Source: Myxococcaceae bacterium (GTDB taxonomy: Bacteria > Myxococcota > Myxococcia > Myxococcales > Myxococcaceae). From it: DNA of 53,069 bases. The stretch lies in contig RPRB01000014.1 in NCBI GenBank assembly GCA_003818285.1, positions 1 through 53,069 of the forward strand. The letters run 5' to 3'. The notes below the pieces were generated by a model. It was not told the DNA's origin. It searched no databases and worked only from the letters and a program-made list of their open reading frames with translations. This document shows, in pieces, positions 7,707 to 29,408 of this stretch (the stretch's first letter is position 1; the number at the start of each line of letters is the position of its first letter). Position numbers and translations under genes: made by a program.

Positions 7707-7811
7707 GGGGCGCTCCTCCTGGCGGGACGAGGGAGCGGACCCTAGCAAGCTCAATGCTCGGCGTGGCGACAGCGACGACGAGCGCCGCCGGCTCGCGGGA
7801 TGCGGGCCCCC

Positions 7812-8090
7812 TCACATCTGCCGGAACCGGTGCGCATACGGGTGGCTGACCGGGATGCGCTCTGGATGGTCCCGCAGCACGATCTCCAGACCCCCGCACC
7901 CGAGCTTCCGGACGCCGAGGATGGCCCGCAGGTTCACCACGTAGCTTCGGTGCACGCGCCAGAACGCGTCGGGGTCCAGCTCCTCCAGCAGCTGCTTCAG
8001 GGGGCGTGAGACGAGGTGCTCGCGCTCGCGAGTGACCGCCGACCTGTACATCTCGAACGTCGGCTTCGGTCCTCCGCCGATCGGGCTCGG
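7812..8090 (-). pseudogene. LytTR DNA-binding domain remnant of a LytR/AlgR-type response regulator
   Basis: On the minus strand, a 79-residue reading frame from 8051 to 7812 encodes most of a LytTR DNA-binding domain: YRSAVTREREHLVSRPLKQL, LDPDAFWRVHRSYVVNLRAI, then LPVSHPYAHRF-like residues at the end (ERIPVSHPYAHRFRQM). The frame stays open upstream only to about 8090, where a stop occurs, and those residues (PSPIGGGPKPTFE) do not resemble the first LytTR strand. No CheY-like receiver domain is present. The most likely reading is a regulator that lost its 5' part, possibly when the upstream lipoprotein gene on the other strand was placed here. A short independently translated LytTR protein is possible but there is no ribosome-binding site to support it. 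Confidence 0.65.
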
Positions 8091-8193
8091 TCAGATCCTC
8101 CGGGTGCACCTGCCCCACGACGACCACGACGGCGATCGAGACCACCCGGGCGACGAGGACGACTGACCCGATGGGCCAGAAAAGGGACCGAAC

Positions 8194-8892
8194 ATGCGAA
8201 AGACCATGCTCTTCGTGATCGCGGGAGTGCTGGGGTGCGGAGGCAGCAGCGGGCCGGGAAGCAACGGCGGGACGAACCGCGCTCCCGTCGCGGTGCCGAC
8301 CGCGACCACCCTCGCGGTGGTGATGGGGCAGTCCACCGAGCTGCAGGCGCAGGCCAGCGATCCGGACGGAGATGCCCTGACCTACAGCTGGTCGCAGACC
8401 GCGCCGACCTCACCGCAGGGGACGTTCAGCTCGGCGACCTCGGGTTCTCCCACCTGGACCGCGCCCACTGTCGGGGCAACGACGGCGTTCACGCTCGCCG
8501 TCACGGTGTCCGACGGCAAGGGTGGCAGCAGCACGGCGGACCTGACGGTCTACGCGAAGACCTCGGCGGATCCGTCCTTCCTCGCCGAGGTCTCGAGGAT
8601 CCTCGCCAGGGTCTGTGGCGACTGCCACGGCGGCATCTCTCCCGCGGCCCAGCTGTCGCTCGAACCCAGCAGGTCGTACGGGGATCTGGTGAACGTCCCC
8701 GCAGTGGCCAGCTGCAGGGGCGAGCTGCGGGTCACGCCCGGGGACCCAGACCACTCGGTGCTGATCGGGAAGATGTCTGGGGCGTCCTGCGGACAGCGCA
8801 TGCCTCCTGCGGACCCCACCTACTATGACCGCGCGGCGGACGAGTTCGCGCTGGTCAGCACCTGGATCCAGAACGGCGCGCCGAGGAACTAG
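8194..8892 (+). CDS. PKD/Ig-like domain lipoprotein with a single c-type haem site
   Basis: This 232-residue secreted protein begins with a short signal and lipobox-like segment ([17 protein letters not shown], Cys15), a Gly/Ser linker, then one PKD/cadherin-like beta-sandwich ([12 protein letters not shown] to [12 protein letters not shown], residues about 29-121, with [12 protein letters not shown] typical of such domains). The C-terminal third carries a CxxCH haem-attachment motif (Cys141-Cys144-His145) followed by [15 protein letters not shown] and RMPP, a pattern seen in small cytochrome-like domains of surface proteins. It is probably a membrane-anchored haem protein; redox partners are not evident. 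Its TAG stop overlaps the dnaJ stop on the other strand at a shared CTAG, so the two genes are fully convergent with no room for a terminator. Confidence 0.8.
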
Positions 8893-9998
8893 CCGAACAG
8901 CTCGCGCACCTTCTCGAAGAAGGTCTTGGTCTGCGGGTGAGTCTGCTCGCCGGAGAGCTCGGCGAAGCGCTCGAGCAGCGCCTTCTGCTCCGAGCTCAGG
9001 TGCGTGGGGGTCTCCACCAGGATCCGCACGTGCTGGTCGCCGCGGCCCCCGCCGTGGAGGTGGGGGATGCCCTTGCCCTTGATGCGGAACACCTTCCCGC
9101 TTTGCGTGCCTGCGGGAATCTTCATCCGGTGCTTGCCGTCGAGCGTGGGCACGTCGAGCTGCGCCCCGAGCGCCGCCTGGACGAAGGACACCGGCACCTC
9201 GCAGAGCACCTCGGTGTCCTCGCGCACGAAGATGGGGTGGTCCTTCACGTGGATCACCACGTAGAGGTCGCCCGACGGGCCACCGTGGTCTCCGGGCTCT
9301 CCCTCCCCCCCGACCCGCACCCGCGTGCCGGTGTCGACCCCGGGAGGGATCTTCACCGTGAGGGTCGTCTGCCCATCGACGCGGCCCGCGCCCCGGCAGT
9401 AGGTGCACGGCGAGGTCGCGGTCTGGCCCGAGCCGCCGCAGGTGGTGCAGGGCCGGCTGACCGAGAAGAAGCCCTGCGTGTAGCGAAGCTCGCCCGCTCC
9501 TCCACAGGTCGGGCAAGTGTGCACCCGCTTGTCCGCACTCCCTGTCCCCTCGCAGTGCTCACAGCGCTTCGGCTTGGGAATCCGGACCTGCACCTCGGAG
9601 CCGAACGCGGCCTCCTCGAAGCTGATCTCCAGGTTGTAGCGGAGGTCGGCGCCGCGGGTCCGTCCGCCGCGCCGGGACCGGGTGGCGCCGAAGATGTCCC
9701 CGAAGATCTCGCCCAGGACGTCGTTCAGGTTGGAGGGGTTGAAGCCGCCGAACCCCTCGAACGGGCTCCCGCCGTGCCCGAAGCGGTCGTAGCGCAAGCG
9801 CTTCTCCGGATCCGACAGGACCTCGTAGGCCTCCGAGGCCTCCTTGAAGCGCTCCTCCGCCTGGTGGTCTCCGGGATTTCGGTCCGGGTGGTACTGGAGG
9901 GCGAGCTTCCGGTAGGCGCTCTTCAGCTCCGCCGCCGTGCACTCCCGAGCCACACCGAGGATCTCGTAGTAGTCACGCTTCGTCGCAGAGGCTGCCAT
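8889..9998 (-). CDS. dnaJ: Chaperone protein DnaJ
   Basis: The 369-residue Hsp40 co-chaperone has all class I DnaJ parts in order: J-domain with HPD at residues 37-39 ([11 protein letters not shown]), a Gly/Phe-rich linker ([17 protein letters not shown]), four zinc-binding CxxCxGxG repeats ([32 protein letters not shown]), then the beta-sandwich substrate domains and C-terminal tail. It stimulates DnaK ATPase and delivers unfolded clients. No dnaK or grpE lies beside it, so it is not in the classic operon. A possible sigma-70-like promoter is noted upstream at 10041-10068. Length is normal. Confidence 0.97.
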
Positions 9999-10040
9999 CC
10001 GTCGTGCTCAACCCTTCGAATTGAGGGGGAAACGGCGGGG

Positions 10041-10068
10041 AGCATAATGCAGGGAACTCACTCGGCAA
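10041..10068 (-). promoter_or_regulatory. Possible sigma-70-like promoter of dnaJ
   Basis: Read on the minus strand, TTGCCG (10068-10063) and TATGCT (10046-10041) are separated by 16 bases and sit about 43 bases before the dnaJ start. Each hexamer matches the consensus at four of six positions. An imperfect inverted repeat CTCAA-N9-TTGAG follows at about 10008-10026; it is not a CIRCE element. The call is from pattern only. Confidence 0.3.
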
Positions 10069-10079
10069 CGAGCGGGGCG

Positions 10080-10529
10080 CTAGACCTGCCAGATCTGGCT
10101 CGGACTGAGGCCCATCTCCCCGAGCCGGCGGCGCAAGCGTCGGTCGATGCTGCCCCGCCTGGTCCATCGAGGCACCACGAAGTGCAGCTCGGCCGCGTAC
10201 AGCCGCGCCGCGCTCGCCAGGAGCGACCAGCGGTTCTCGGAGCCCGGGTCGTCCACCGATTCCGGCAGCACCACCTCCAGCAGAAGGGGGGTCCGTCCAC
10301 TGTCGTGCTGGCGGCAGGTCAGATCCGGCCGGTGGTCCTCGAGGGTGCCGTTGAGCACCGTGGGCGCGGCGTGCCCGGGGAGCCGGGCCTTCACGTCGGA
10401 GTAGCCGAGCGTCTGGAAGAACTCCGCCATCAGCCAGAGGACCCGCTGCCGCGCCCCGTCGCGCAGCACCGCGTCGCAGCCGTCTGGCAGCCCACCCCCG
10501 GACTGAAACTTCCAGCGTTCGAGCTTCAT
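10080..10529 (-). CDS. Conserved-looking protein of unknown function, possible PD-(D/E)xK-like fold
   Basis: This is a 149-residue protein from the ATG at 10529 (an in-frame TTG 39 bases upstream is less likely). I do not recognise the family with certainty. It is soluble, with no signal peptide or membrane segment. The segment HRPDLTCRQ...TPLLLEVVLPES places an Asp before a beta-strand and a Glu within the next strand (D-x(n)-E-x-V), as in PD-(D/E)xK nuclease-like folds, and is followed by helical residues RWSLLASAARLYAAELHFVVP, similar to the usual strand-helix order. The conserved Lys position is Val, so catalysis is doubtful. It lies upstream of dnaJ on the same strand, 81 bases apart, and diverges from the ABC exporter gene. 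Confidence 0.6.
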   Translation of the reverse strand: MKLERWKFQSGGGLPDGCDAVLRDGARQRVLWLMAEFFQTLGYSDVKARLPGHAAPTVLNGTLEDHRPDLTCRQHDSGRTPLLLEVVLPESVDDPGSENRWSLLASAARLYAAELHFVVPRWTRRGSIDRRLRRRLGEMGLSPSQIWQV

Positions 10530-10613
10530 CCCGAGGTGTACGGTTTGAACGGGAGCCGAAACCGGCAATCCTTGACTTCAGCACGCGCCGGAACGCATGG
10601 CTGCTGAGCGGGC

Positions 10614-12365
10614 ATGACCTCCACCCTCGGCCGGCTCCTCGCTCTGCTGCGCCCCTCGGCGCGCCTCGTCGCGGGCGCGGTGCTCGCCGCGATGGTGAGC
10701 GCCGCGGCCGCCGCCGGCTACGCCTGGCTCATCGGCCCCCTGCTCCGGAGCGTGCTCCTCTCCGAGCCGATGCGCCTGGTGGGCCTGTACACCTCACCCG
10801 AGCGGGCTCGCTGGCTCCTGCCCGGGCTGCTCGTGGCGCTGGCGGTCGTCAAGGCGGGGGCCCAGCTGCTCCAGACTGGGTGGATGCAGGTGGCCGGACA
10901 GCGCGCCCTGGCCACTCTCCGCTCCGACCTCTACGCGCATCTGCTCGCCCTCCCACCGGCGACGCACGAGTCGAGGGCGAGCGGCGACGTGCTGAGCCGG
11001 CTCACCGCCGACGTCGCACAGGTGGAGTTCTCGGTCACCCAGGCACTCACCACCTGGGTGCGCGATGCGCTGCAGCTGCTGGCACTCCTCGGCGTGTGCC
11101 TGGTGCTGGACTGGAGGCTCTTCGCGCTGAGCTTCGTGGTGTTCCCCGCCGCGCTGGTTCCCATCACCCGCTTCGCCCGCGCGGTGAAGCGGGCCGCTCG
11201 CACCACCCAGGGCAGGCTCGGAAACCTGACCGCCCTGGTCGGCGAGCAGCTGCACGCGCTCCCTGTCGTCCAGGCCTTCGGGATGGAACCGCGGGTGCGA
11301 ACGGCGTTCGATGCCGAGCAGGCCCGCTATCTCCGGGAGATGGACCGCTCGCTCCTGCTCCGCGGCTCGGCCAGCCCGTCCATCGAGCTGCTGGGCATCA
11401 CCGGGCTGGCGCTCGCGCTGGCGGTGGGGGCGCAGGCGGTGCGGGCCGAGCCGGCGCTGGCCAGCCACCTGATGTCGTACGTGGGCGCGGTGCTCCTGAT
11501 GTACGGGCCGCTGAAGACCCTCTCCTCCACCCTCACCCAGGTGGTCGCCGGAGTCGGCGCGGCAGAGCGGGTGTTCGAGCTGGAGGACCGCCGCACGCCC
11601 CCGGACCGGGGCGAGCAGGCGCCCCCGCTGCACCGGGCGCTCCGCCTCGAGGACCTCCGCATCCAGTACGGCGAGGTGGATGCGCTCCGCGGACTCACCC
11701 TCGAGCTTCCCGCGGGCAAGACGGTCGCGGTGGTCGGCGCCTCGGGCGCAGGGAAGAGCACCCTGTTCTCCGCGCTTCTCCGCTTCGTGGATCCGGCGGG
11801 CGGACGCATCCTCTGGGACGGGCAAGACGTGCGAGGGTACAGCCGCGCGTCGGTGCGGGCGCGCATCGCCTGGGTGCCGCAGGAGCCGGTGCTCTTTGCC
11901 GGCTCGGTGCGTGACGCGGTCCGCGTCGGCAACCCGGACGCCACCGACCCCGAGGTGTGGAGCGCGCTGGCGCGGGCACACGGCGCCGAGTTCGTGCGGG
12001 CCTTGCCCCGGGGCCTCGACACGCCGGTGGGCGAGCGCGGTGCGCAGCTCAGCGGTGGACAGCGGCAGCGGCTCGCCATCGCCCGAGCGTTCGTCCGCGA
12101 GCCGTCGCTCCTCTTGCTCGACGAGCCCACCAGCAGCCTCGACGCGGCGAGCGAGGCCCTCGTGCAGGCCGGCCTCGCCGAGCTGAAGGCCGGCCGGACC
12201 ACCCTGGTGGTCGCCCACCGGCTGTCGACCGTGCGGAGCGCCGATCTCATCGTGGTCCTCGAGGCGGGCCGGGTGGTCGAGCAGGGCAACCACGAGCAGC
12301 TGGTGGCGCACGGCACCGTCTACCGGCGGCTGCTGGATCGCGGAGGCGCCGATGAGCCGGCGTGA
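10614..12365 (+). CDS. ABC transporter with fused permease and ATPase (MsbA-like exporter)
   Basis: The 583-residue half-transporter has an N-terminal six-helix membrane domain (about residues 15-310) and a C-terminal nucleotide-binding domain. Walker A GASGAGKST is at residues 375-383; the signature LSGGQRQR, Walker B LLLLDEPTSSLD and the H-loop VVAHRLSTV follow in order. Architecture and length match lipid A exporter MsbA and related multidrug exporters, which act as homodimers flipping lipids across the inner membrane. The start 'MTSTLGRLLALLRP' fits the cytoplasmic N-tail. The next gene overlaps its end by 14 bases, so the downstream unknown genes are probably co-transcribed. Whether lipid A is the substrate cannot be said; no lpx or kdo genes lie nearby. 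Confidence 0.9.
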   Translation: MTSTLGRLLALLRPSARLVAGAVLAAMVSAAAAAGYAWLIGPLLRSVLLSEPMRLVGLYTSPERARWLLPGLLVALAVVKAGAQLLQTGWMQVAGQRALATLRSDLYAHLLALPPATHESRASGDVLSRLTADVAQVEFSVTQALTTWVRDALQLLALLGVCLVLDWRLFALSFVVFPAALVPITRFARAVKRAARTTQGRLGNLTALVGEQLHALPVVQAFGMEPRVRTAFDAEQARYLREMDRSLLLRGSASPSIELLGITGLALALAVGAQAVRAEPALASHLMSYVGAVLLMYGPLKTLSSTLTQVVAGVGAAERVFELEDRRTPPDRGEQAPPLHRALRLEDLRIQYGEVDALRGLTLELPAGKTVAVVGASGAGKSTLFSALLRFVDPAGGRILWDGQDVRGYSRASVRARIAWVPQEPVLFAGSVRDAVRVGNPDATDPEVWSALARAHGAEFVRALPRGLDTPVGERGAQLSGGQRQRLAIARAFVREPSLLLLDEPTSSLDAASEALVQAGLAELKAGRTTLVVAHRLSTVRSADLIVVLEAGRVVEQGNHEQLVAHGTVYRRLLDRGGADEPA

Positions 12366-16842: not shown

Positions 16843-16990
16843 GACGGACGCCGACGTCGCAGGCCTGAAGCCGGAGTGCCACCCCGGCCGACGCCGGTCT
16901 GGACCGTGCGTGGCGCCATGACTGCGACAAGACCGCCCGATTCGGCTTCGGTTGCCTGAGGGCCGGGGATCGGGCAGAGCACACCCCCTC

Positions 16991-19216
16991 ATGTTCGTCG
17001 CCCTGGCCCGGGCCGTCTCCCGGCATCGCCTGGCCGTCCTCGCGGGCGCGCTCGCCATCCTCGCGCTGGCGGTGCTGTCGATCGTCCGGGGCGGGAGCCT
17101 GACCAGCGGCACCATCGAGGGCACCGAGTCCGCGCGCGCCGCGGAGCTCGTCCGCGGGGCCGCCGGGGCCGACACCGACACCAGCGTGGTCGCGCTGTTC
17201 AGTCATCCGAAGCTCGCCGCGACCGACCCGGTCTTCCAGAGCGCGCTGGCGCTCCACCTGGACAAGGTGAGCGCCCGCCCCGAGGTGGAGAGCGCGGTCT
17301 CGGTGGTGACCGTGCCCGAGCAGGCCCGCGCGCGCTTCATCTCGCGCGACGGCCGGACCGCCCTGGTGCTGGTGCGGCTCAAGGGGGACGAGAAGGCGGC
17401 GGTGAAGGCCTTCCCCGCGGTGAAGGCCGCCCTGCGCGACGGGCCCTTCACCGTGGCCATCACCGGCAAGCCCGCCTTCCTCTTCGACCTCAACACCGAG
17501 CTCGAGCACGACCTGCTGCGCGCCGAGCTCGTCTCCTTCCCCCTCGCGCTGGTCGTGCTCCTCTGGGTGTTCCGCACTCTCGTGGCTGCCCTTCTGCCCA
17601 TCGTCGTCGGCGGGCTGGCGGTGCTGGCGGGCGTGGGCGCGGTGCTCGCCCTCTCGCACCACCTGGACATGGCCCAGTACACGCTCAACGTGGTGAGCCT
17701 CATCGGGCTCGGCGTGGCCATCGATTACTCGCTGTTCATCGTCAGCCGCTTCCGGGCCGAGCTGGACGGCGGGTCGAGCGTGCAGGCCGCGCTGGAGCGC
17801 ACCGTGGACACGGCGGGGCGAGCAGTGGCGTTCTCCGGGCTCGCGGTCGCCGCCGGACTCTCCGGCCTGCTCTTCTACCGGGGCTCGTTTCTGGCGGCGA
17901 TGGGGCTGGGCGGGGCGATCGTGGTCGGCTTCGCGGTCCTCTTCGCCCTCACCCTCTTGCCGGTCATCCTCGGCTGGCTCGGGCGCCGGGTGGATCTGGG
18001 CCGCGTGCCGATCCCGCCCTTCGGTCTCCGGGCCGGGCTGTGGAAGCGTCTCGCCGGCTGGGTGATGAAGCACCCGCTCAAGGTGCTCCTGCCCACGCTG
18101 GCGCTCGTCGCCTTCCTGGGCTGGCCCTTCGTCCGGCTGCAGACCGCCGGCACCGACATCACCGCCTTGCCCGAGTCGACCGAGGCGCGCCAGGGGGCCG
18201 CGGCGCTGGCCCGGGCCTTCCCCGAGCAGAGCGCGACCCGGATCCTGGTCGCGGTGGAGCTCCCCGGAAACCCCTTCACGCCCGAGCGGGTGGCCGCGCT
18301 CTACGACGCCACCCGACGCTGGGCACGGCTCCCCGGCGTGGTGGGAGTGGAGAGCATCGTCAACCTCGACCCGCGGGTGACCCGCGAGCAATACCTCCAG
18401 CTCGCCAGCGCCCCGCCCGCGTTCCGCCCACCGGAGTTCGCACTCGCCGAGGCGGCGTACCTTCACGGAAAGGTGGCCGTCGTGCAGGTGCTCACCCCGG
18501 GGCCCGCCTCCAGTGCCGAGGCGCGGCAGCTGGTGAAGGCGCTCCGGCAGGACCGCGTGGTGGGGGACGGACGGGCATTGGTCGGCGGACAGACCGCCAG
18601 CGACGTCGACTCGACCGCGTTCGTGCTCGACCGGGCCTGGCTCGCGGTGGGGCTAGTGGTTCTGGTCACGCTCGTGGCGCTGTTCGTCCTTCTGGGCTCG
18701 GTGGTGCTCCCGCTCGAGGCGGTGGTGATGAACTTCCTCTCCCTCGCGGCGAGCTTCGGGGCTCTGGTCTGGATCTTCCAGGAGGGGCATCTGCGATGGC
18801 TCCTCCACTTCCAGCCCGGACCGCTCGAGCCGGCGCTGCCCGTCCTCCTCTTCTGCACCCTCTTCGGGCTCTCGATGGACTACCAGGTCCTCATGCTCTC
18901 CCGGATGCGCGAGGAGCTGGGTCGGACGCACGACAACCGCGCCGCGGTCGCCGAGGGTCTGGAGAGGACCGGAAGTCTCATCACCAGCGCGGCGGCGATC
19001 ATGGTCGCGGTGTTCGCGGCCTTCGCCCTGGCGAACATCCTCGTGGTCAAGGCGATGGGCGTGGGGATGGCGATTGCGGTTGCGCTCGATGCCACGCTGG
19101 TGAGAGTCCTGATCGTGCCCGCCACCATGCGTCTCTTCGGGGCCGCCAACTGGTGGGCGCCGCGGGCGCTGCAACGTCTGGCCCTCACGGCACACGGAGA
19201 GAAGAGCGCCCCATGA
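16991..19216 (+). CDS. MMPL/RND-type lipid transporter
   Basis: The 741-residue membrane protein (start ATG at 16991) has the MMPL layout: TM1, an exported loop of about 150 residues, a five-helix block (LVSFPLALVVLLWVFRTL, LNVVSLIGLGVAIDYSLFIVSRFR), a second loop, and a repeat of the block (LFGLSMDYQVLMLSRMREE). The paired motifs GVAIDYSLF and GLSMDYQVL contain the Asp-Tyr dyad used for proton coupling in MMPL proteins. Family members export lipids such as mycolates, hopanoids or sterols. Its stop overlaps the next start (ATGA), coupling it to a glycosyltransferase that converges on a squalene epoxidase gene. A role in sterol or glycolipid export is inference; methanotroph sterol transport also uses an RND-type protein (BstA). 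Confidence 0.9.
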   Translation: MFVALARAVSRHRLAVLAGALAILALAVLSIVRGGSLTSGTIEGTESARAAELVRGAAGADTDTSVVALFSHPKLAATDPVFQSALALHLDKVSARPEVESAVSVVTVPEQARARFISRDGRTALVLVRLKGDEKAAVKAFPAVKAALRDGPFTVAITGKPAFLFDLNTELEHDLLRAELVSFPLALVVLLWVFRTLVAALLPIVVGGLAVLAGVGAVLALSHHLDMAQYTLNVVSLIGLGVAIDYSLFIVSRFRAELDGGSSVQAALERTVDTAGRAVAFSGLAVAAGLSGLLFYRGSFLAAMGLGGAIVVGFAVLFALTLLPVILGWLGRRVDLGRVPIPPFGLRAGLWKRLAGWVMKHPLKVLLPTLALVAFLGWPFVRLQTAGTDITALPESTEARQGAAALARAFPEQSATRILVAVELPGNPFTPERVAALYDATRRWARLPGVVGVESIVNLDPRVTREQYLQLASAPPAFRPPEFALAEAAYLHGKVAVVQVLTPGPASSAEARQLVKALRQDRVVGDGRALVGGQTASDVDSTAFVLDRAWLAVGLVVLVTLVALFVLLGSVVLPLEAVVMNFLSLAASFGALVWIFQEGHLRWLLHFQPGPLEPALPVLLFCTLFGLSMDYQVLMLSRMREELGRTHDNRAAVAEGLERTGSLITSAAAIMVAVFAAFALANILVVKAMGVGMAIAVALDATLVRVLIVPATMRLFGAANWWAPRALQRLALTAHGEKSAP

Positions 19217-20403
19217 GCACCGTCCTCCTCGCCCTGGCCGTCCTCTCGCTGGTCTTGCTGGTCGAGGGCCACGTACGGCTGCGACGCGTCCTCGCCCGCC
19301 GTCCGGCTCCGCCGCCCTTTCCGGCGACCGCCCCCTCCATCTCCGTCATCCGCCCGGTGAAGGGGCTGGACATCGGGGCCCTGGACAACATCCGCGCCTT
19401 CCTCGAGATGGAATACCCGGGACGACTGGAGCTTCTCTTCGTGGTGGACTCCGAGGAGGACCCGGCCACCCCGGTCATCCGGCGGCTCATCGCCGAGCAC
19501 CCCACCACGGCCCGGCGGGTGGAGCTGCTCTTCTCCGGCTCGCCCCCCCCGCGTCGCACCGGCAAGCTCAACGCGATGCTGGTGGGGGTGGCCGCGGCGT
19601 CCGGTGAGCTGCTCGCCTTCAACGACTCGGACAGCCGCCCGGCGAAGGACCTCCTGGGTCGACTCGTCTCCGAGCTGCTCGCCAGGCCGGACTGCGGCTG
19701 CACCTTTGCCCCGGTGGTTGCCGCCGCGGACCGGCCCACCGCGGGGGACGTGGGCTACGAGCTGCTGATGAACGCCTGGTACGGCCCGACCGTGTCCTGG
19801 GCGGCCGAGCCCCGAGGCGAACTGGACTTCATCATGGGGCAGCTCATGGTCTGCCGGCGCCAGGCCCTCGATGCGGTGGGTGGGGTCGGCGTGGCCGAGG
19901 GCCAGTTCGTCGACGACATGTACATCGGCCGGGCGCTGTGGAACGCCGGCTGGAAGAACGTGGTCATCGAGTCGCCGCTGCGGATCGTCATCGGCGGGAT
20001 GGGACCGCTCCAGTTCTTCCGCACCTTCCGCCGGTGGATCCTCTTCAGCGAGGGCGGGCTGTCCTTCCGATTCACCTGGCCCAACTGGGTGCGCGGCGTC
20101 TCCTGCTGGGTGGCCTGGGCGGTGCTCGCCGTGGCGCTCGCCACCGGGAACCTCGCGGCTGCGGCGACGGCGCTGCTCCCCATCGCCTTCTCGGTCTTCA
20201 CCCAGGCCTCGCTCCAGCGCGCGTCCCACGGCCCGCGCATCCGCCTGCACCAGCTGTGGGTGCCGGCGGTGATCCCGCTCATCGGTGGAATGGTGCAGAT
20301 CGCCGCGAAGCTGAACCGCCGGGTGGACTGGCGGGGCCGGAGCTACGACCTGGACGCCGAGGCCCGGCTGGGGGCCAGCGGCTCGTCGGCGGCGGGGACG
20401 TGA
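19213..20403 (+). CDS. Family 2/21 glycosyltransferase (ceramide glucosyltransferase/HpnI-like)
   Basis: This 396-residue membrane glycosyltransferase has an N-terminal TM (VLLALAVLSLVLLVEG), a GT-A domain with PSISVIRPVKGLD, the LNAMLVG lobe, the metal-binding Asp-Ser-Asp at residues 138-140 (FNDSDSRP), the acceptor-base region FVDDMYIGRALWNAGW (Asp234, Asp235) and an RTFRRW motif at 270-275 close to the (Q/R)xxRW element, then two or three C-terminal helices. That set is typical of ceramide glucosyltransferases and HpnI, which acts on hopanoids. It starts in the ATGA overlap of the MMPL gene. Its 3' end overlaps the convergent squalene epoxidase gene by 61 bases. It could add a sugar to a sterol, ceramide or other lipid; the acceptor is not shown by sequence. 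Confidence 0.87.
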   Translation: MSTVLLALAVLSLVLLVEGHVRLRRVLARRPAPPPFPATAPSISVIRPVKGLDIGALDNIRAFLEMEYPGRLELLFVVDSEEDPATPVIRRLIAEHPTTARRVELLFSGSPPPRRTGKLNAMLVGVAAASGELLAFNDSDSRPAKDLLGRLVSELLARPDCGCTFAPVVAAADRPTAGDVGYELLMNAWYGPTVSWAAEPRGELDFIMGQLMVCRRQALDAVGGVGVAEGQFVDDMYIGRALWNAGWKNVVIESPLRIVIGGMGPLQFFRTFRRWILFSEGGLSFRFTWPNWVRGVSCWVAWAVLAVALATGNLAAAATALLPIAFSVFTQASLQRASHGPRIRLHQLWVPAVIPLIGGMVQIAAKLNRRVDWRGRSYDLDAEARLGASGSSAAGT

Positions 20404-21737
20404 GGAGCGGGGAGCGCGAGGATCCGGTCCTCGACCACCCCGGCCATCGCCGTGCGCAGGTGCGGGAGCGCCGAGGCGACCAGGAGCGCTCCGGCGTGCA
20501 TCGCCCGCCGCGGTCCCTGGACGGCCCGGACGCCGCCCGCCCCCAGGGCGAGCAGCCCGTGCGCCACGACTCGTGCGTACTCGCGCGCCATCACCGACAT
20601 GCGCGTCTCGCGGGTGGAGAGCAGGGACATCGAGATGCGCAGACCGGTGGGCGAGCGCTCCCAGTAGCGGAAGAGCCCGCTCCGCAGCGCCGCCATCTCG
20701 CCGGCGTCGCTGCTGAAGGCCTCGTAGAGGGACGAGGCCAGGGCAATCCGGGTGCGATTGGCGGGCCGGCGGGCACGGGCGTACGCGGCGAGCGCTCGCG
20801 GGACGTCGTTGCTCGCCTCGGCCATGACCCGGTGGAGCACCCGCGCGTCACGGACCGCCGAGGCCATGCCGCTCGCGCTCAGCGGATGGCAACACCCGGC
20901 GGCATCACCCACCAGCACCACGTGACCCTTGTAGACCTGGTCCATGATGCGGGTGTCGTTGGAGGCGACGAGGGGCGCCTCCCGCTGGAGCGCGACGAGG
21001 ATCGCCTGCCGCAGTGGTTCCGGGACGCCGGAGAGGATCTCCTGCTCGGTGCGGACGCGCTCGGGGCTGGAGCCGAGGGGCAGATCCACCATCACCCGCG
21101 CCTGGCTATCGGAGATGGGGTAGGCGAGAACCGGGGCCGGGCCACCGATGAAGAGGTGCCCGCGCCCGGCATGCGGAAGCGCCGAGGCCTCCACCATCAC
21201 GCCGATCATCGTGGAGAGCCGGACGTGCTGCTCGGCGATTCCGAGCGAGCGACGCAGCGGCGAGGCCCGCCCGTCGGCGGCCACCAGCATCCGGGTCCGC
21301 ACCCGCTCCGACTGACCTTCCCGGGACAGGGTGACCTCCACGCCGTCCGGCCCGTCGGAGACCAGGGCGACGCGCGACCTCCGGCGGACCTCGACGTCCC
21401 CGCGCTTCTCGAGCACGTCCAGCAGCGGGGTGACGAGCGCGTGGTGCTCGATGCCCAGGCCGCGGTTGCCCGGCGCGTAAGGGAGCAGCGCGGTCTTCTC
21501 CCCGTCCACCACCGCGAAGCCGATGATCGGAGCGCCGCCGGATCGCAGCACCTCGGAGAACCCGAAGGCGGTGAGCTCCTCCACGCCGATCGGGTGGAGC
21601 AACTCGCCTGCCAGCTGCTTGCGGCGATCCTGCCCCGCGTCGGCGAGGAGGGTGCGCAGGCCGAGCTGGGCCATGGCCGCGGCGGTGGTGCACCCCGCGG
21701 GGCCGCCACCGGCGACGAGCACGTCCACTTCCCTCAA
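20343..21737 (-). CDS. Squalene monooxygenase (epoxidase)-like FAD flavoprotein
   Basis: This 464-residue group A/E FAD monooxygenase has a TTG start with GGGGAGG about ten bases before it. The Rossmann motif VAGGGPAG is at residues 8-15, the DG motif AADGRASPLRR at 154-163, and the GD motif GDAAGCCHPLSASGM at 277-291. The His-Pro-Leu within the GD motif and the downstream hydrophobic C-terminal region (VVAHGLLALGAGG) resemble squalene epoxidases more than geranylgeranyl reductases, whose motif usually reads DPLTGEG. It would convert squalene to 2,3-oxidosqualene using O2. It is divergently transcribed from squalene synthase with about 95 bases between starts; the enzyme assignment leans partly on the adjacent DCTAE-type cyclase. 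Confidence 0.82.
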   Translation of the reverse strand: MREVDVLVAGGGPAGCTTAAAMAQLGLRTLLADAGQDRRKQLAGELLHPIGVEELTAFGFSEVLRSGGAPIIGFAVVDGEKTALLPYAPGNRGLGIEHHALVTPLLDVLEKRGDVEVRRRSRVALVSDGPDGVEVTLSREGQSERVRTRMLVAADGRASPLRRSLGIAEQHVRLSTMIGVMVEASALPHAGRGHLFIGGPAPVLAYPISDSQARVMVDLPLGSSPERVRTEQEILSGVPEPLRQAILVALQREAPLVASNDTRIMDQVYKGHVVLVGDAAGCCHPLSASGMASAVRDARVLHRVMAEASNDVPRALAAYARARRPANRTRIALASSLYEAFSSDAGEMAALRSGLFRYWERSPTGLRISMSLLSTRETRMSVMAREYARVVAHGLLALGAGGVRAVQGPRRAMHAGALLVASALPHLRTAMAGVVEDRILALPAPHVPAADEPLAPSRASASRS

Positions 21738-21832
21738 GGCAGCGTTTCCTCCCCGGCCCTTCTTCCGGGCCTTCTTATAGAGTGTGCCGCGCCTCGGCGC
21801 ATCTTCCGTCGCCTCTCCGTCGTAGGTGTTTC

Positions 21833-22873
21833 GTGACTGGACCCGAAGACTTCTGCCGTCGCGCTCTGCCGGAGGTGTCTCGCACCTTCGCGCTCAACAT
21901 CCCGGTTCTCCCGCCGCCGTTGGATCTCGTGGTGACGGTTGCCTACCTTCTGTGCCGCATCGCCGACACGCTCGAGGACGAGGCGCGAGGACAAGTTTCC
22001 GAACGGGCAGAGCTGTTTCACATGCTCGGACGCCTGGTGAAGCTCGAGCCTGGCTGGGAGGAGAGGAGCGCGGAGTTCGCCCGGCATTCGGTGGCCGCGC
22101 TGCGGCCGTCCGCCCCCACGGCCGAGGTGCAGCTCGTCCAGGGCACCCCGACTGTCCTGGAGGCCATGCGCGGCTTGCCGGACTGGACTCACCCGCACAT
22201 CGCCGCCTGCGTGGTCGAGATGACCGGCGGGATGGCGCAGATGATGATCGAGCTCGACGGGGGCGCGCCGCAGGGCTTGCCTGATCTGCGGGATACCCTT
22301 CAGTACTGCTACTACGTCGCGGGAACGGTGGGGGTGATGCTCACCGGACTGTTCGTCGACGGGTACGAGTCGGTGCGGCCACGCAGGTCCGAGCTGGTTC
22401 CCCGCGCGCCGGCATTCGGCCGCGCGCTGCAGCTCACCAACATCCTCAAGGACATCCGCGAGGATCTGGATCGCGGATTCTGCTGGCTCCCGCGCACATC
22501 CATGGCGAAGCACGGGCTCACGCCGGCCAACCTCCTTCTGCCCGAGAAGCGGGTCGCCGCGGTGGCCCTGCTCGACGACCTGGTGGCGGTGGCCCGGCAC
22601 GAGTGCGACGTGGCGTTCGAGTACTCGCTGATCCTGCCCCGCTCGGAGCCCGGGCTCCGTCTGTTCTGCCTCTGGCCGCTCCTGTTCGCGGTGCGGACGC
22701 TCGCGGTCCTGGCGCACAACCCGGCGGTGTTCGAGCCGGCCCCGGTGAAGATCGACCGGGAGACGGTCATGCGGATCATGGTTCTCACCCGCGAGAGCGT
22801 CGCCGACGATCGGGCGCTGGAGTCGCTCTACGCCGAAAGCGCGCGCGGGGTTCCCGAGGGGCGCAGGGCATGA
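21833..22873 (+). CDS. Squalene synthase (squalene/phytoene synthase family)
   Basis: The GTG at 21833 is the most likely start (an in-frame GTG at 21782 would add 17 poorly conserved residues). The 346-residue protein has both Asp-rich metal sites of the trans-isoprenyl synthase family: DTLED at residues 45-49 and DIREDLDRG at 207-215, plus RTFALNI near the start and YCYYVAGTVGVM, all in the usual spacing. These bind the Mg-diphosphates of farnesyl diphosphate. Overlap with the cyclase gene by ATGA shows it feeds that pathway, so squalene is the expected product; a phytoene synthase is less likely because no carotenoid desaturase is nearby. Confidence 0.92.
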   Translation: MTGPEDFCRRALPEVSRTFALNIPVLPPPLDLVVTVAYLLCRIADTLEDEARGQVSERAELFHMLGRLVKLEPGWEERSAEFARHSVAALRPSAPTAEVQLVQGTPTVLEAMRGLPDWTHPHIAACVVEMTGGMAQMMIELDGGAPQGLPDLRDTLQYCYYVAGTVGVMLTGLFVDGYESVRPRRSELVPRAPAFGRALQLTNILKDIREDLDRGFCWLPRTSMAKHGLTPANLLLPEKRVAAVALLDDLVAVARHECDVAFEYSLILPRSEPGLRLFCLWPLLFAVRTLAVLAHNPAVFEPAPVKIDRETVMRIMVLTRESVADDRALESLYAESARGVPEGRRA

Positions 22874-24816
22874 CCGCTCCCCGGAGCCGTGCCACGCCCT
22901 CCGCGGTCGATCGGGGGCTGGAGGTGCTCGCCGCCACCCAGGACGCGGGCGGCTCGTGGAAGGGCGACTACGGCGGACCGCTCTTCCTGGTGCCGGTCTA
23001 CGTCGCGGGCCTGGAGCTGCTCGGACGACCGCCCGATCCGGCCACGCGCGAGGGATTCATCACCTACCTCCGCGGGCACCAGAATCCCGACGGCGGCTGG
23101 GGGCTGGACGTCGAGTCGCACAGCCATGTCTTCACCTCGGTGCTGGTCTACGCGACCCTGCGGCTCCTGGGCGTCCCGGCCGAGGATCCGCAGCTGCAGC
23201 GGGCGCGCGCCTGGTTCCTCCCGCACGGGGGGCCGCTGTCGAGCGGCTCGTGGGGGAAGTTCATCCTCGCGATGCTGGGGCTCTACGAGTACCAGGGCCT
23301 CGTTCCCCTGCCGCCCGAGCTGTGGCTCCTCCCCGAGTCGCTGCCGCTGCACCCCTCGAAGCTCTGGTGTCACTGCCGGATGGTGTACCTGCCGATGAGC
23401 TGGCTGTACGGCCGGCGGGTGCGGGCGAAGCAGACGCCGCTGCTCGCCGCCATCCGGAGCGAGATCTACGCCCAGCCCTACGAGAGCGTGGACTGGCCGG
23501 CGGCGCGCGAGCGCGTGGCGGGGACCGACGCGTACACGCCGAGGACGTCGTATCTCCGGGCGGCCAACGGAGTGCTCGGGCTGTGGGAGCGGTTCGCGCC
23601 GGCCGGAGCGCGCGAGCGGTCGCTGCAGATGGTGCTCGACCAGATCCGCCGCGAGGACGAGGCGACGAATCACATCTGCATCGGCCCGATCAACAAGGTG
23701 CTGAACACGGTGGTGTGGCAGATCGCCCGGCCGGGAGGTCCCGAGGTCGAGGCGCACGTGAAGCGGCTACCGGACTATCTGTGGCGCGCCCCGGACGGCC
23801 TGAAGATGCAGGGCTACAACTCGTCCGAGCTGTGGGACACCGCGTTTGCCGTCCAGGGCATTCTCGCCACCAGGGGGGTCGAGCGGATGCGCCCGGTGCT
23901 CGAGCGCGCGGCGCACTACATCGAATCCAACCAGGTGCTCGAGGACGTGGCGGAGATGGAGAAGGGCTACCGGCACCGGAGCCGCGGCGGCTGGCCGTTC
24001 TCCACCCGCGCCCACGGGTGGCCGATCAGCGACTGCACCGCGGAGGGGCTCAAGGCCTCCCTGTTGCTGGAGAAGGTCGGGATGAACCAGGTCCCGCGAG
24101 CACGGCTCCGCGAGGCGGTGGAGGAGATCCTCTCGCTCCAGAACGAGGACGGCGGCTGGGCGACCTACGAGCTGCAGCGCGGGCCGAAGTGGCTCGAGGC
24201 GCTGAATCCCTCGGACGTGTTCTCCACCATCATGGTGGACGTCTCCTACGTCGAGTGCACGTCGGCCTGCGTCCAGGCCCTGGCCGCCTGGAGGACCTTC
24301 GCGCCCGAGGACGAGGCGTGGCTCCGGGAACCCATCCGGCGGGGTGAGCGCTTCATCCGCAAGGTGCAGCGCGCCGACGGCTCGTGGGAGGGCAGCTGGG
24401 GCGTGTGCTTCAGCTACGGAGCCTGGTTCGGGACGGCGGGTCTGGTGGCCGCGGGAGCGCGTCCGGACGATCCCGCGCTCCGTCGCGCCGCGGACTACCT
24501 CCAGGCCCGGCAGCGGTCAGACGGGAGCTGGAGCGAGACGCTGGAGTCCAACCGGCAGCGCCGCTGGGTGGACGGGCAGCGCGGGCACGCGGTGCAGACC
24601 TCGTGGGCAGTGCTGTCGCTCGCGGCATGCGGGCGGCGCGACTCCGAGGCGGTGCGCCGGGGCGTGGTCTGGCTGCGCGAGCACCAGGGCGAGGACGGCC
24701 GCTGGCCGGATCAACCGATCACCGGCGTGTTCAACCGGACCTGCGCGATTCACTACGACATCTACCTGCGCCTGTTCCCGGTCTGGGCGCTCGCCGTGTG
24801 CGGGACCGCGAGCTGA
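22870..24816 (+). CDS. Oxidosqualene cyclase, predicted cycloartenol synthase
   Basis: This 648-residue triterpene cyclase has several QW repeats (QNPDGGWG, QNEDGGWATYE, VQRADGSWEGSW, RQRSDGSWSE, HQGEDGRWPD). The catalytic motif is DCTAE with Asp388, the form found in oxidosqualene cyclases; squalene-hopene cyclases have DxDDTA instead. At the three positions that decide product outcome in plant cycloartenol synthase (Tyr410, His477, Ile481 of Arabidopsis CAS1), this protein has Tyr316 (MQGYN), His382 (AHGWP) and Ile386 (PISDC); spacing is within one residue. Lanosterol synthases differ at these positions. Together they predict that 2,3-oxidosqualene is cyclised to cycloartenol, as known for Stigmatella. 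It is translationally coupled to squalene synthase (ATGA). The N-terminus is shorter than in eukaryotes. Confidence 0.93.
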   Translation: MTAPRSRATPSAVDRGLEVLAATQDAGGSWKGDYGGPLFLVPVYVAGLELLGRPPDPATREGFITYLRGHQNPDGGWGLDVESHSHVFTSVLVYATLRLLGVPAEDPQLQRARAWFLPHGGPLSSGSWGKFILAMLGLYEYQGLVPLPPELWLLPESLPLHPSKLWCHCRMVYLPMSWLYGRRVRAKQTPLLAAIRSEIYAQPYESVDWPAARERVAGTDAYTPRTSYLRAANGVLGLWERFAPAGARERSLQMVLDQIRREDEATNHICIGPINKVLNTVVWQIARPGGPEVEAHVKRLPDYLWRAPDGLKMQGYNSSELWDTAFAVQGILATRGVERMRPVLERAAHYIESNQVLEDVAEMEKGYRHRSRGGWPFSTRAHGWPISDCTAEGLKASLLLEKVGMNQVPRARLREAVEEILSLQNEDGGWATYELQRGPKWLEALNPSDVFSTIMVDVSYVECTSACVQALAAWRTFAPEDEAWLREPIRRGERFIRKVQRADGSWEGSWGVCFSYGAWFGTAGLVAAGARPDDPALRRAADYLQARQRSDGSWSETLESNRQRRWVDGQRGHAVQTSWAVLSLAACGRRDSEAVRRGVVWLREHQGEDGRWPDQPITGVFNRTCAIHYDIYLRLFPVWALAVCGTAS

Positions 24817-24935
24817 CGGCGGAAGCGGGCTCCGCTGGAACGAACGGTGTCCCCCGTGAGCCCGTCCCCGCTCGGGACACTCGGTTCACTGCATCCGGGG
24901 AGCGGTTCGCCGCACGCCATGCAAGCGTGTCGGAA

Positions 24936-27089
24936 ATGCGTCTTGCTCCCAGCCTCACCGCCCTCACCCTGCTCGCCTGCGCCGGTGGTCCCGCGCCGGC
25001 GCCGTCGCGACCCGCGCCGCTGTCCGCCGCCCCGGCGCCGTCGAGCGTGCAGCCGCCGCCGGCCCTGAACGAGCCGGTGGGAGTCGCCGCAGCGCGCCTC
25101 TCCGGGCCCGCTTCCGGCCTCACCGCCGCCTGCCAGGATGCGATGGCTCGAACGCGGACCGGGATCGAGGCGGTGAAGACGAGCCTCCCGCCACGCGACA
25201 CCGTCGCCACGCTCACCGCCTACGACGACGCGCTCGCCGCCGCGGGGGACCTCGCCTCGCAGGCGGCGGTGGCGCGGCAGGCCAGCCCCGACGCGGGGAT
25301 GCGCAAGGCCGGCGAGGAGTGCGGCCGGCAGATCCAGGCGCTGCTGACCGGGATCAGTCAGGACCGCACCCTGTACCAGGTCCTCTCCGGGCTCGATCTC
25401 TCCGGGCAGGATCGGGCCACCCGATGGTGGATGGAACGCGAGCTGCGCGATTTCCGCCGCGCGGGCGTTGACCGGGACGAAGCGACCCGGGAGAGGGTCC
25501 GGGCGCTGAACGACGACATCGTGGCGATCGGCCAGGAGTTCGACCGGAACATCCGCGAGGGAACCAGGACCGTCGCCTTCGCTCCGGCAGAGCTCGCCGG
25601 GCTGCCCGACGACTTCCGCAAGGCGCATCCTCCGGGTGCCGACGGGAGGATCAGCCTCACGACGGACTACCCGGACTACAAGCCGTTCATGGCCTACTCC
25701 CGGAGCGGCAAGGCGCGCGAGGCGTTGTGGCGCGCCTACAACACCCGCGCGCCGGCCAACGCCGAGGTGCTCACCCGCCTCCTGGCAAGGCGCCACGAGC
25801 TCGCGACCGCGCTGGGCTACGCGCACTGGGCTGACTACATCACCGAGGACAAGATGATCCGCAGCGGCAAGGCCGCCTCGGACTTCATCGAGCGGATCTC
25901 CACCGCGGCGAGGCCCCGCTCGGAGGTCGAGCTCTCCATCCTGCTGGCGCGCAAGCGCAAGGACGACCGAGGGGCGACCCGGTTCGAGGCCTGGGATTAC
26001 TCCTATGAGTCGAACCGGGTGAAGGCCGAGCAGTACCGGTTCGACGCGAAGACGGCTCGCCCGTACTTCGAGGCCACCCGCGTTCTGGACGGAGTCATGG
26101 GCGTCACCGGCAAGCTGCTCGACATCTCCTACCGGCCCGTCCAGGGCGCGACGGTCTGGCACCCTGAGGTGCGAGTCTACGACGTCATCGGAGGGCCGTC
26201 GTTCGAGGAGCGCGCGGGGCAGGCTGTGGGGCGCGTCTACCTCGACCTCCATCCTCGCGAGAACAAGTACAAGCACGCGGCCCAGTACACGGTCATCAAC
26301 GGCCAGAGGGGGCACCGGCTCCCGGAAGGAGCGCTGCTCTGCAACTTCCCCCGCTCGGGCGGGCTGATGGAGTACGACGACGTCCAGACCCTGTTTCACG
26401 AGTTCGGACACCTGGTTCACCACGTCCTCGGGGGGCACACCCGCTGGGCCGCGAACTCGGGGACGAGCACCGAGCGGGACTTCGTCGAGGCCCCGTCGCA
26501 GATGCTCGAGGAGTGGACGCGTGACCTGGGCGTGCTGCAAGGCTTCGCCCGCCACGTGAAGACCGGAAAGCCGATCCCGACGTCGCTGGTCCGGAAGCTC
26601 CGGGCCGCCGAGGAGTTCGGGAAGGGCATCGACGTGCGGCAGCAGATGTTCTACGCCGCGACCAGCCTGCACCTCCACGATCGCGACCCGAAGGGAATGG
26701 AGCCGACGGCCTTCGTGGCGGACCTCCAGTCGCGCTACGGCGCGTTTCCGTTCGTTCCCGGCAGCACGTTCTACACCGCGTTCGGCCACCTGAACGGATA
26801 CAGCGCCGTCTACTACACGTACATGTGGTCGCTGGTCATCGCGAAGGACCTCTTCACCGCGTTCGAGTCGACTGGCGTGTTCGATCGCGAGAGCGGCGCG
26901 CGCTATCGCCGCAGGATTCTCGAGCCAGGCGGAGGAAAGCCCGCCGCGGAGCTGGTGACCGACTTCCTGGGCCGGCCCTACGACTTCGCGGCCTACGAGG
27001 CGTGGCTGAACCGGGGAACACTCCCGGGGCCGCGGCGAGAGTCAGGCCCGGCACGCGGACCGGAGAACCGTCCGGCAGCGCTCCACTGA
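24936..27089 (+). CDS. M3 family metallopeptidase lipoprotein, copy 1
   Basis: This 717-residue protein has a lipoprotein signal (MRLAPSLTALTLLACAGG, Cys15), a Pro/Ala-rich linker and then a helical oligopeptidase fold. The zinc motif HEFGH is at residues 488-492, with the third ligand Glu in DFVEAPSQMLEEW. The C-terminal FGHLNGYSAVYYTYMWS region is typical of thimet oligopeptidase-like M3 enzymes, which cut short peptides inside a closed channel. As a lipoprotein it would act in the periplasm or at the outer membrane, unlike the cytosolic M3 enzymes. It is one of two tandem paralogues; the second copy starts 177 bases downstream. A short related sequence (GCGGTTCGC) occurs in both upstream leaders, consistent with tandem duplication including the leader. 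Confidence 0.9.
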   Translation: MRLAPSLTALTLLACAGGPAPAPSRPAPLSAAPAPSSVQPPPALNEPVGVAAARLSGPASGLTAACQDAMARTRTGIEAVKTSLPPRDTVATLTAYDDALAAAGDLASQAAVARQASPDAGMRKAGEECGRQIQALLTGISQDRTLYQVLSGLDLSGQDRATRWWMERELRDFRRAGVDRDEATRERVRALNDDIVAIGQEFDRNIREGTRTVAFAPAELAGLPDDFRKAHPPGADGRISLTTDYPDYKPFMAYSRSGKAREALWRAYNTRAPANAEVLTRLLARRHELATALGYAHWADYITEDKMIRSGKAASDFIERISTAARPRSEVELSILLARKRKDDRGATRFEAWDYSYESNRVKAEQYRFDAKTARPYFEATRVLDGVMGVTGKLLDISYRPVQGATVWHPEVRVYDVIGGPSFEERAGQAVGRVYLDLHPRENKYKHAAQYTVINGQRGHRLPEGALLCNFPRSGGLMEYDDVQTLFHEFGHLVHHVLGGHTRWAANSGTSTERDFVEAPSQMLEEWTRDLGVLQGFARHVKTGKPIPTSLVRKLRAAEEFGKGIDVRQQMFYAATSLHLHDRDPKGMEPTAFVADLQSRYGAFPFVPGSTFYTAFGHLNGYSAVYYTYMWSLVIAKDLFTAFESTGVFDRESGARYRRRILEPGGGKPAAELVTDFLGRPYDFAAYEAWLNRGTLPGPRRESGPARGPENRPAALH

Positions 27090-27266
27090 CGCCTCACCGC
27101 GGGTGACGAGGGCCGGCCATCGTGCCCCGGCGGTCGCTCTCCGGACTCCGTCCAGCGCGGAACAGGCGGTTCGCTGCACGGCGGTGACCCTCCGCGGCGC
27201 TCCGTGCGAGAGTGCCGCCCTTTCTCGCGACCCCATCCGGATGGTCGCCCTTCTCGAAAGTCACCG

Positions 27267-29408
27267 ATGCGCCTCGTCCTCGTCCTACCGACCCTGACGG
27301 TCCTCGCCTGCGCCAGCGCGCCCGTACCGGCGCCTGCGCCCTCGACCACCGCCGCCAAGACGGCCGCTCCGGCCCCGGCCAAGGCTCCTCCCGCGCTCGA
27401 CGAGCCGGTGGGCGCCGCCGCCGCACGCCTCTCCGGACCGGCCTCCGGCTTCACCACCGCCTGCAAGGCTGCGATGGAGCGGGCGCGCGCCGGGCTCGAC
27501 GCGGTGAAGGCCAGCTCGCCGCCGCGTGACATCGTCGCCACGCTCACCGCCTACGACGACGCGCTCGCCGCGATCACCGACGCCGCCGCCCAGACCGAGC
27601 TGGCGCGCCAGGGTAGCCCGGACCCGGACATGCGCAAGGCGGGCGAGGAGTGCGACCGGCAGCTGCAGGCGATGTTCACCACCATCAACCAGGACCGCGC
27701 GCTCTACGACGTGCTCTCCTCCGTCGACCTCTCAGGCCAGGACGTCAGCACGCGCTGGTGGATGACCCGTGACCTGCGGGATTTTCGCCGCGCGGGGGTG
27801 GACCGTGACGAGGCCACGCGCGAGAAGGTTCGCGCGCTCAAGGATGAGCTGGTCGCCCTCGGGCAGGAGTTCGAGCGCAACATCCCCGCCGACGTGAAGA
27901 AGGTCGCCCTCGGCCCTGCGGACCTCGCAGGGTTGCCGGCCGACTACCTCGCCGCGCACCCCCCGGGTCCGGACGGGAAGATCGTCCTCACCACGGATTA
28001 TCCGGACTACTTCCCGGTGCGGAACTACGCGAAGAAGGCCTCCACCCGCGAGGCGATGTGGCGAGCGTTCATGACCCGCGCCGCGCCCCAGAACATCGCC
28101 GTGCTCGAGCGGCTGCTCGTCAAGCGCCAGGAGCTCGCCCGGACCCTCGGATACGCGAACTGGGCGGACTACATCACCGAGGACAAGATGATCCGCAGCG
28201 GGAAGGCGGCCTCGGACTTCATCGAGCGGATCACCACCGTCTCCGGAGCTCGCGCGGCGCAGGAGAAGAAGCTGCTGCTCGACCGGAAGCGGAAGGACGT
28301 GCCGGGAGCCAAGGCGCTCGACCCGTGGGACATCGTCTACTACGGCGAGGTGGTGAAGGCGGAGCGCTACCGCTTCGACGCACAGAAGGCCCGGCCATAC
28401 TTCGAGGCCGGTCGAGTCTTCCAGGCAGTGCTCGACGTCTCGGGGAAGCCCTTCGACTTATCCTATCGCCCGGTGGACAGCGCGACGGTCTGGCACCCCG
28501 ACGTCCGGACCTTCGACGTCATCGCCGGCGCGTCGTACGGCGATCGCGCGGGAAAGTTGCTGGGCCGCGTCTACCTGGACCTGCACCCGCGCGAGGGGAA
28601 GTTCAAGCACGCCGCCCAGTTCTCGATCATCTACGGCCAGGCCGGACAACGACTCCCGGAGACCGCGCTGCTCTGCAACTTCCCACGGCCGGGCGGGCTC
28701 ATGGAGTACGGCGACGTCAGGACGCTGTTCCACGAGTTCGGCCATCTGGTGCATCACGTGCTGGGCGGCAATACCCGGTGGGCGGCGAATTCCGGTGTGC
28801 GCACCGAATGGGACTTCGTCGAGGCACCCTCGCAGATGCTCGAGGAGTGGATGCGCGACCCGGGCGTGCTCCGGAGCTTCGCGAAGCACGTGAAGACCGG
28901 TGAGCCGATCCCGGCGAAGATGGTGGAGCAGCTCCGCGTGGCCGAGGAGTTCGGGAAGGGCCTCGAGGTGCGGCGGCAGATGTCCCTGGCCGCCCTCAGC
29001 CTCCATCTGCACGATCGCGAGGCGCAGGGCCTGGACTCCACCGCGGTCGTCGCCGAGTCGATGGAGAAGTACTGGACCTTCCCCTACGTGAAGGACACGT
29101 ACCTGCAGACCTCGTTCGGGCACCTGAACGGGTACAGCGCGATCTACTACACGTACATGTGGTCCCTGGTCATCGCCAAGGACCTCTTCACACCCTTCGC
29201 CAACAAGGGCGTGTTCGACCGCGAGACCGCGAACCGGTACCGCGATCGAATCCTCGCCATGGGTGGCGGAAAGCCTGCGGCGGACCTGGTGAGCGACTTC
29301 CTCGGACGGCCCTACGACTTCAAGGCCTACGAGGCCTGGCTCGATCGAGGCGCGCTGCCCGGGGCGCCGAAGGGTCCGCCCCGAGCCGGCCCCACGGCGG
29401 TGCGCTAG
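27267..29408 (+). CDS. M3 family metallopeptidase lipoprotein, copy 2
   Basis: This 713-residue protein is clearly paralogous to the gene immediately upstream: the same lipobox start (MRLVLVLPTLTVLACA), the same Ala/Pro linker, the same LSGPASG, RKAGEEC, DRDEATRE and ADYITEDKMIRSGKAASDF stretches, and HEFGH at residues 489-493 with Glu in DFVEAPSQ. All zinc ligands are kept, so both copies should be active. Differences concentrate in the linker and in the middle helical domain (for example FPVRNYAKKAS against KPFMAYSRSGK), which may alter peptide choice. The stop lies in a 10-bp palindrome (GCGCTAGCGC), and the convergent di-haem gene ends three bases later. Confidence 0.9.
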   Translation: MRLVLVLPTLTVLACASAPVPAPAPSTTAAKTAAPAPAKAPPALDEPVGAAAARLSGPASGFTTACKAAMERARAGLDAVKASSPPRDIVATLTAYDDALAAITDAAAQTELARQGSPDPDMRKAGEECDRQLQAMFTTINQDRALYDVLSSVDLSGQDVSTRWWMTRDLRDFRRAGVDRDEATREKVRALKDELVALGQEFERNIPADVKKVALGPADLAGLPADYLAAHPPGPDGKIVLTTDYPDYFPVRNYAKKASTREAMWRAFMTRAAPQNIAVLERLLVKRQELARTLGYANWADYITEDKMIRSGKAASDFIERITTVSGARAAQEKKLLLDRKRKDVPGAKALDPWDIVYYGEVVKAERYRFDAQKARPYFEAGRVFQAVLDVSGKPFDLSYRPVDSATVWHPDVRTFDVIAGASYGDRAGKLLGRVYLDLHPREGKFKHAAQFSIIYGQAGQRLPETALLCNFPRPGGLMEYGDVRTLFHEFGHLVHHVLGGNTRWAANSGVRTEWDFVEAPSQMLEEWMRDPGVLRSFAKHVKTGEPIPAKMVEQLRVAEEFGKGLEVRRQMSLAALSLHLHDREAQGLDSTAVVAESMEKYWTFPYVKDTYLQTSFGHLNGYSAIYYTYMWSLVIAKDLFTPFANKGVFDRETANRYRDRILAMGGGKPAADLVSDFLGRPYDFKAYEAWLDRGALPGAPKGPPRAGPTAVR

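Follow-up and report, generated by a model that had tools for sequence, protein, structure and literature searches.

A predicted cycloartenol synthase of the Myxococcaceae and its linked glycosyltransferase and transporter genes

In the oxidosqualene cyclase (OSC) family, an acid opens the epoxide, a cyclization cascade and shifts reach the C9 cation, and a Tyr-His pair acting with an Ile would direct proton loss from C19 and cyclopropane closure. This Tyr, His and Ile combination has been called invariable among cycloartenol synthases, and bacterial lanosterol synthases with Tyr, His and Val are on record (PMC5101207). In the bacteria tested by Wei et al., including Cystobacter fuscus, Ile or Val at position 453 of the human enzyme matched the production of cycloartenol or lanosterol, respectively (PMC4919349). 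For the Myxococcaceae, a study from 2025 inferred vertical inheritance of the cyclase within the family and predicted that its Osc forms cycloartenol, in agreement with the lipids of Stigmatella and Cystobacter (PMC12004948).

The window analyzed here is a stretch of 53,069 nucleotides on contig C39 of a 5.77-Mb, 502-contig Myxococcaceae genome, whose closest named relative is the Myxococcaceae metagenome-assembled genome Chersky_276 (89% identity). Its cyclase resembles the Myxococcaceae cycloartenol synthases of Stigmatella aurantiaca and Cystobacter fuscus (TIGR03463) by a score above the subfamily cut-off, by its place in the family clade carrying Tyr-His-Ile (Y-H-I) and by the squalene synthase and epoxidase genes that adjoin it, as in relatives. 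It differs from them in being about 65–70% identical to relatives of other genera and in having a product that is only predicted, and its locus has an extra glycosyltransferase gene which is lacking in the genomes of genus g8, the ones with the top TIGR03463 scores. The features of the locus are as follows.

16952..19216, + strand: MMPL/RND-family transporter, candidate sterol-lipid transporter (PF03176, 261 bits; synteny; co-occurrence)
19213..20403, + strand: GT21/HpnI-like membrane glycosyltransferase, 396 aa, with an ATG overlapping the MMPL stop by 4 bp (PF13506, TIGR03472, phmmer)
20343..21737, - strand: squalene epoxidase, an FAD monooxygenase, transcribed away from the synthase-cyclase pair (PF08491 SE, 108 bits; PF01494, 110 bits; same place in relatives)
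21738..21832, no strand: intergenic region of about 95 bp between the epoxidase and the synthase-cyclase units, presumed to hold divergent promoters
21833..22873, + strand: squalene synthase, likely GTG start at 21833, longest ORF from 21782 (PF00494, 165 bits)
22870..24816, + strand: 2,3-oxidosqualene cyclase, predicted cycloartenol synthase, 648 aa (TIGR03463; fold match to human OSC)
23815..23817, + strand: codon of Tyr316 (human T381, CAS1 Y410; alignments)
24013..24015, + strand: codon of His382 (human C449, CAS1 H477; alignments)
24025..24027, + strand: codon of Ile386 (human V453, CAS1 I481; alignments)
24031..24045, + strand: DCTAE motif, D388 to E392, with D388 the catalytic acid (human D455) and C389 equivalent to C456 (alignments)

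The cyclase, its fold and its relatives

The cyclase ORF is uninterrupted, and its ATG and the stop of the squalene synthase gene before it share 4 bp (ATGA). An alternative in-frame GTG lies upstream at 22603; because of this overlap, the ATG at 22870 is the natural start. Profile searches gave 882 bits with NCBIfam TIGR03463 (2,3-oxidosqualene cyclase; curated cut-off 851) and 595 bits with TIGR01787 (cut-off 323), the matches covering residues 12–644. The catalytic motif is DCTAE, where hopene cyclases have DXDD. The human OSC 1w6k was the top PDB match of an AlphaFold2 model of the protein (mean pLDDT 87.6, pTM 0.89; TM 0.95, rmsd 1.8 Å, 44% identity). In the sequence alignment, D388, C389, C463, H168, W322, F377, Y433, W510 and F621 are equivalent to human D455, C456, C533, H232, W387, F444, Y503, W581 and F696. 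All the catalytic and cavity positions inspected agreed with both Arabidopsis CAS1 and human OSC (Y34, W166, H168, W322, F377, D388, C389, Y433, C463, W510 and F621).

In a quick tree, for which long branches were warned of, the cyclase fell inside a Myxococcaceae clade with Corallococcus, Myxococcus and Citreicoccus (29 rows, SH-aLRT 99) and not with the plant or human enzymes. This placement bears on an older proposal, reviewed in PMC4919349, that the Stigmatella enzyme came from a plant. A recent acquisition of the present gene from a plant or alga appears extremely improbable, given its position deep within the family clade and far from CAS1, a gene order common to several genera, and the vertical inheritance inferred by the 2025 study (PMC12004948). 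With CAS1 the window cyclase has in common the triad (Y410/H477/I481 in CAS1) and the cavity residues that were compared, whereas it lacks the plant N-terminal region and is distant in the tree. Two plasmid-encoded proteins shared 35–36% identity with the cyclase along almost its entire length, one from Planktothrix agardhii (NZ_LR882940.1, 53993-55873) and one from a Streptomyces (NZ_CP030772.1, 578888-580789). The next plasmid matches had 29–30% identity, one of them being annotated as a squalene-hopene cyclase.

The triad residues and the predicted product

The first-pass annotation had placed Tyr316, His382 and Ile386 at CAS1 Tyr410, His477 and Ile481, with spacings of 66 and 4 residues. 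Both points held. The three residues stood opposite T381, C449 and V453 of human 1w6k in the phmmer alignment and opposite the CAS1 residues in the MAFFT alignment, unambiguously in each. The CAS1 sequence aligned was one which we take to be the reference; its length of 759 and the positions of Y410, H477, I481 and D483 agreed. The flanks are MQG-Y-N leading to W322 (human W387), and HGWPI-S-D388-C-T-A-E (human D455). An alignment shift behind the triad was rejected by both alignments and by the fold superposition (TM 0.95), which left the residues unshifted against CAS1 and human lanosterol synthase. A chance origin was rejected as well, since Y-H-I is kept in all 30 clade members (the 29-row clade plus L138).

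The three residues do not carry equal weight. The annotation had taken all of them as marks of a cycloartenol synthase, against the usual Thr, Cys or Gln, and Val of lanosterol synthases. That contrast describes the animal and fungal lanosterol synthases, but bacterial lanosterol-type enzymes carry Tyr, and some have His with Val. Y-H-I occurred in 58 of the 76 aligned cyclases (window, CAS1 and human enzymes included), a sample drawn from relatives of the window and thus biased toward Y-H-I. Nearly all the bacterial OSCs collected have Tyr at human position 381. The synthases of methanotrophs and other bacteria of the lanosterol type share with the window cyclase the family, the catalytic acid and Tyr381, but differ at 449, where they have Asn or Gln, and at 453, where they have Val (Y-N-V or Y-Q-V; L103, L066, L064, L059, L060), against His and Ile in the window cyclase. 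Since these enzymes also have the Tyr, Tyr381 carries no product information in bacteria, as judged from the aligned sequences, and should not serve there as a cycloartenol marker. His449 was also paired with Val, as A-H-V, in two deep branches (L128 and L137). Ile453 never occurred without His449 in the aligned set (58 Y-H-I and one F-H-I).

Among bacteria, only the Ile or Val at position 453 has been shown to follow the product, a rule that rests on few analyzed strains. The cycloartenol prediction thus rests mainly on Ile386, with His382 and the clade in support. The window cyclase has the full Tyr/His/Ile pattern of cycloartenol synthases at human 381/449/453, with Ile386 where lanosterol synthases have Val. 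Of the earlier argument, therefore, Ile386 stands, backed by His382 and the clade, and Tyr316 drops out as non-discriminating. Cycloartenol is well supported as the predicted main product, and the case from three residues was overstated, as Tyr does not discriminate in bacteria and His also occurs with Val. The triad confirms a prediction already published for the whole family and is not new.

We infer the product, and the role that each triad residue would play, from the plant mutagenesis literature. The squalene synthase and squalene epoxidase of the adjoining genes would supply (3S)-2,3-oxidosqualene, and D388, braced by C389 and C463, would protonate its epoxide. A chair-boat-chair cascade followed by hydride and methyl shifts would then give a C9 lanosteryl-type cation. 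Tyr316 and His382, with Ile386 keeping the cation in register, would favor giving up a proton from C19, with ring closure to the 9,19-cyclopropane, over formation of the 8,9-alkene.

Residues other than those of the triad are known to take part in product control. With about 44% identity only to human OSC in the fold alignment, and few product data for bacteria, the enzyme might give mixed products, or lanosterol or parkeol, despite Y-H-I, through second-shell residues that would differ from those of plant cycloartenol synthases. We consider this improbable, as no tested bacterial enzyme with I453 made lanosterol (PMC4919349) and the clade found in the tree corresponds at family level to that of the known cycloartenol producers (PMC12004948). 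Taken together, the protein is very probably a Myxococcaceae 2,3-oxidosqualene cyclase, passed down vertically, with cycloartenol as its main product.

Three other groups of cyclases in the alignment had unusual active sites or motifs. L128 and L137 are deep-branching, with Ala at 381, a one-residue deletion shortly after it and the His-Val pair. L115 and L119, near the branch of the Myxococcaceae cycloartenol synthases, have Tyr-Gln-Val, an altered KSY motif and Thr for the cavity Phe (human F696), and their product is hard to predict. The actinobacterial OSC-like L061 of Nocardia sp. alder85J (10001-11863) carries Phe-His-Ile, has DGTAE in place of DCTAE and differs at several cavity positions; its gene adjoins those of a squalene epoxidase and a squalene synthase and possibly serves a different triterpene.

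The locus in relatives and the sterol pathway of the genome

The order MMPL (+), glycosyltransferase (+), epoxidase (-), synthase (+) and cyclase (+) was repeated in ten relatives with enough flanking sequence (L035, L037, L041, L043, L044, L046, L048, L051, L111 and L138). The squalene synthase scored 100 bits with TIGR01559, below the cut-off of 287. Scanning the divergent region (21738..21832) for consensus elements revealed no promoter. In L044 (MAG PMG_225), partial second copies of the epoxidase and cyclase genes (5839-9592), apparently degenerate duplicates, lie beside the intact set.

The genus Corallococcus carries the same Y-H-I cyclase, and Corallococcus coralloides gave no detectable sterol (PMC4919349), so expression or activity of the window cyclase is not assured. 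This lack of sterol despite the genes, together with the degenerate extra copies in L044, would fit a cyclase that is silent or inactive in the window organism, its residues being an inherited relic. Such a relic seems quite improbable for a full-length ORF with a complete catalytic set and 89% identity to the sister genome, the more so as the linked pathway genes are intact and conserved across genera.

The cyclase was the single squalene/oxidosqualene cyclase match of the genome; neither a second cyclase nor a separate hopene cyclase was found in the 502 contigs. The sole P450 match, on contig C77, scored 266 and 248 bits with albaflavenone and pentalenene oxygenases, 211 with the putative P450 7wzl and 129 with CYP51. 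It thus resembles terpene oxygenases more closely than CYP51, and no CYP51 candidate was found in the genome, so cycloartenol is probably not demethylated at C-14. In agreement with this, cultured Myxococcaceae lack most downstream sterol steps (PMC12004948). As no downstream pathway was recognized, the 9,19-cyclopropane presumably stays closed, in contrast to the plant pathway.

Two further candidates for sterol steps were not retained. An ERG4/ERG24 sterol-reductase homologue lies on another contig of the genome, C46 (L149:8019-9086, +; 127 bits, and 126 bits to a solved Delta14-sterol reductase). It was present in several other family members, but searches of the sister genome (82% complete) and of g6, g8 and g20 genomes did not find it, and for that reason it was not accepted as part of the cyclase system; a binning error is a possible source of the gene. 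None of the several geranylgeranyl-reductase-like proteins of the genome could be assigned as the C-24 reductase Bsr in a comparison made without a Bsr reference sequence.

The linked glycosyltransferase and transporter

The glycosyltransferase (19213-20403) matched PF13506 Glyco_transf_21 with 66 bits and a ceramide glucosyltransferase with a phmmer E-value of 1.8e-16. With TIGR03472 (HpnI) it gave 119 bits, below the cut-off of 310, in a genome where the hopene cyclase that would accompany a true HpnI was not found. The MMPL protein (16952-19216) gave 24.6 bits with NF045600, the BstA sterol transporter, against a cut-off of 1400. The glycosyltransferase is therefore HpnI/GT21-like, and the pump falls in the broad family to which HpnN and BstA belong (PMC10942540), but both proteins stay far below the curated cut-offs for HpnI, HpnN and BstA. 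As no hopene cyclase was found in the genome, the partner lipid is unlikely to be a hopanoid of the organism's own making.

Co-occurrence was analyzed in 96 family genomes, of which 47 had the cyclase and 49 did not. The transporter was found in 35 of the 47 and none of the 49 (Fisher p 3e-16), and the glycosyltransferase in 27 of the 47 and again none of the 49 (Fisher p 2e-11), both values coming from related genomes and thus not from independent trials. Genus g20 is the more telling case: among its 27 genomes, the identical five hold cyclase, glycosyltransferase and transporter. The cyclase-positive genomes of genus g8 have only the transporter of the two linked genes. Outside the family, the glycosyltransferase was also found in G056 and G008, with no cyclase there among the matches listed, so its link to the cyclase is strong, not absolute.

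The five-gene order and the restriction of both genes to cyclase-positive genomes within the family suggest that cycloartenol may be glycosylated, exported or both. Cycloartenol would be the simplest candidate acceptor of the glycosyltransferase, another lipid being possible. We tentatively propose, on the grounds of gene content and linkage, that the five-gene block might make a cycloartenol glycoside or other glycolipid conjugate, which the MMPL protein might move toward the outer membrane.

Intact sterol conjugates of sterol-making bacteria have been reported as unidentified (PMC10202945), and no paper linking Myxococcus, oxidosqualene cyclase and glycosyltransferase turned up in the literature collection that we searched. 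If the proposal is true, the product would be the first intact sterol conjugate to be defined in a sterol-making bacterium, with a dedicated conjugation gene, and the block would be the sterol counterpart of the HpnI/HpnN hopanoid system. The locus names candidate genes for sterol glycosylation and transport, and because these occur in culturable Corallococcus and Myxococcus strains, the question of sterol conjugates is directly testable.

Elsewhere in the window, two tandem genes of M3-family peptidases lie directly 3' of the cyclase (24384-27089 and 27204-29408, +). The gene at 39230-40555 (+) encodes an FAD-linked oxidase like the decaprenylphosphoryl-ribose oxidase DprE1 (322 bits, below the cut-off of 500).
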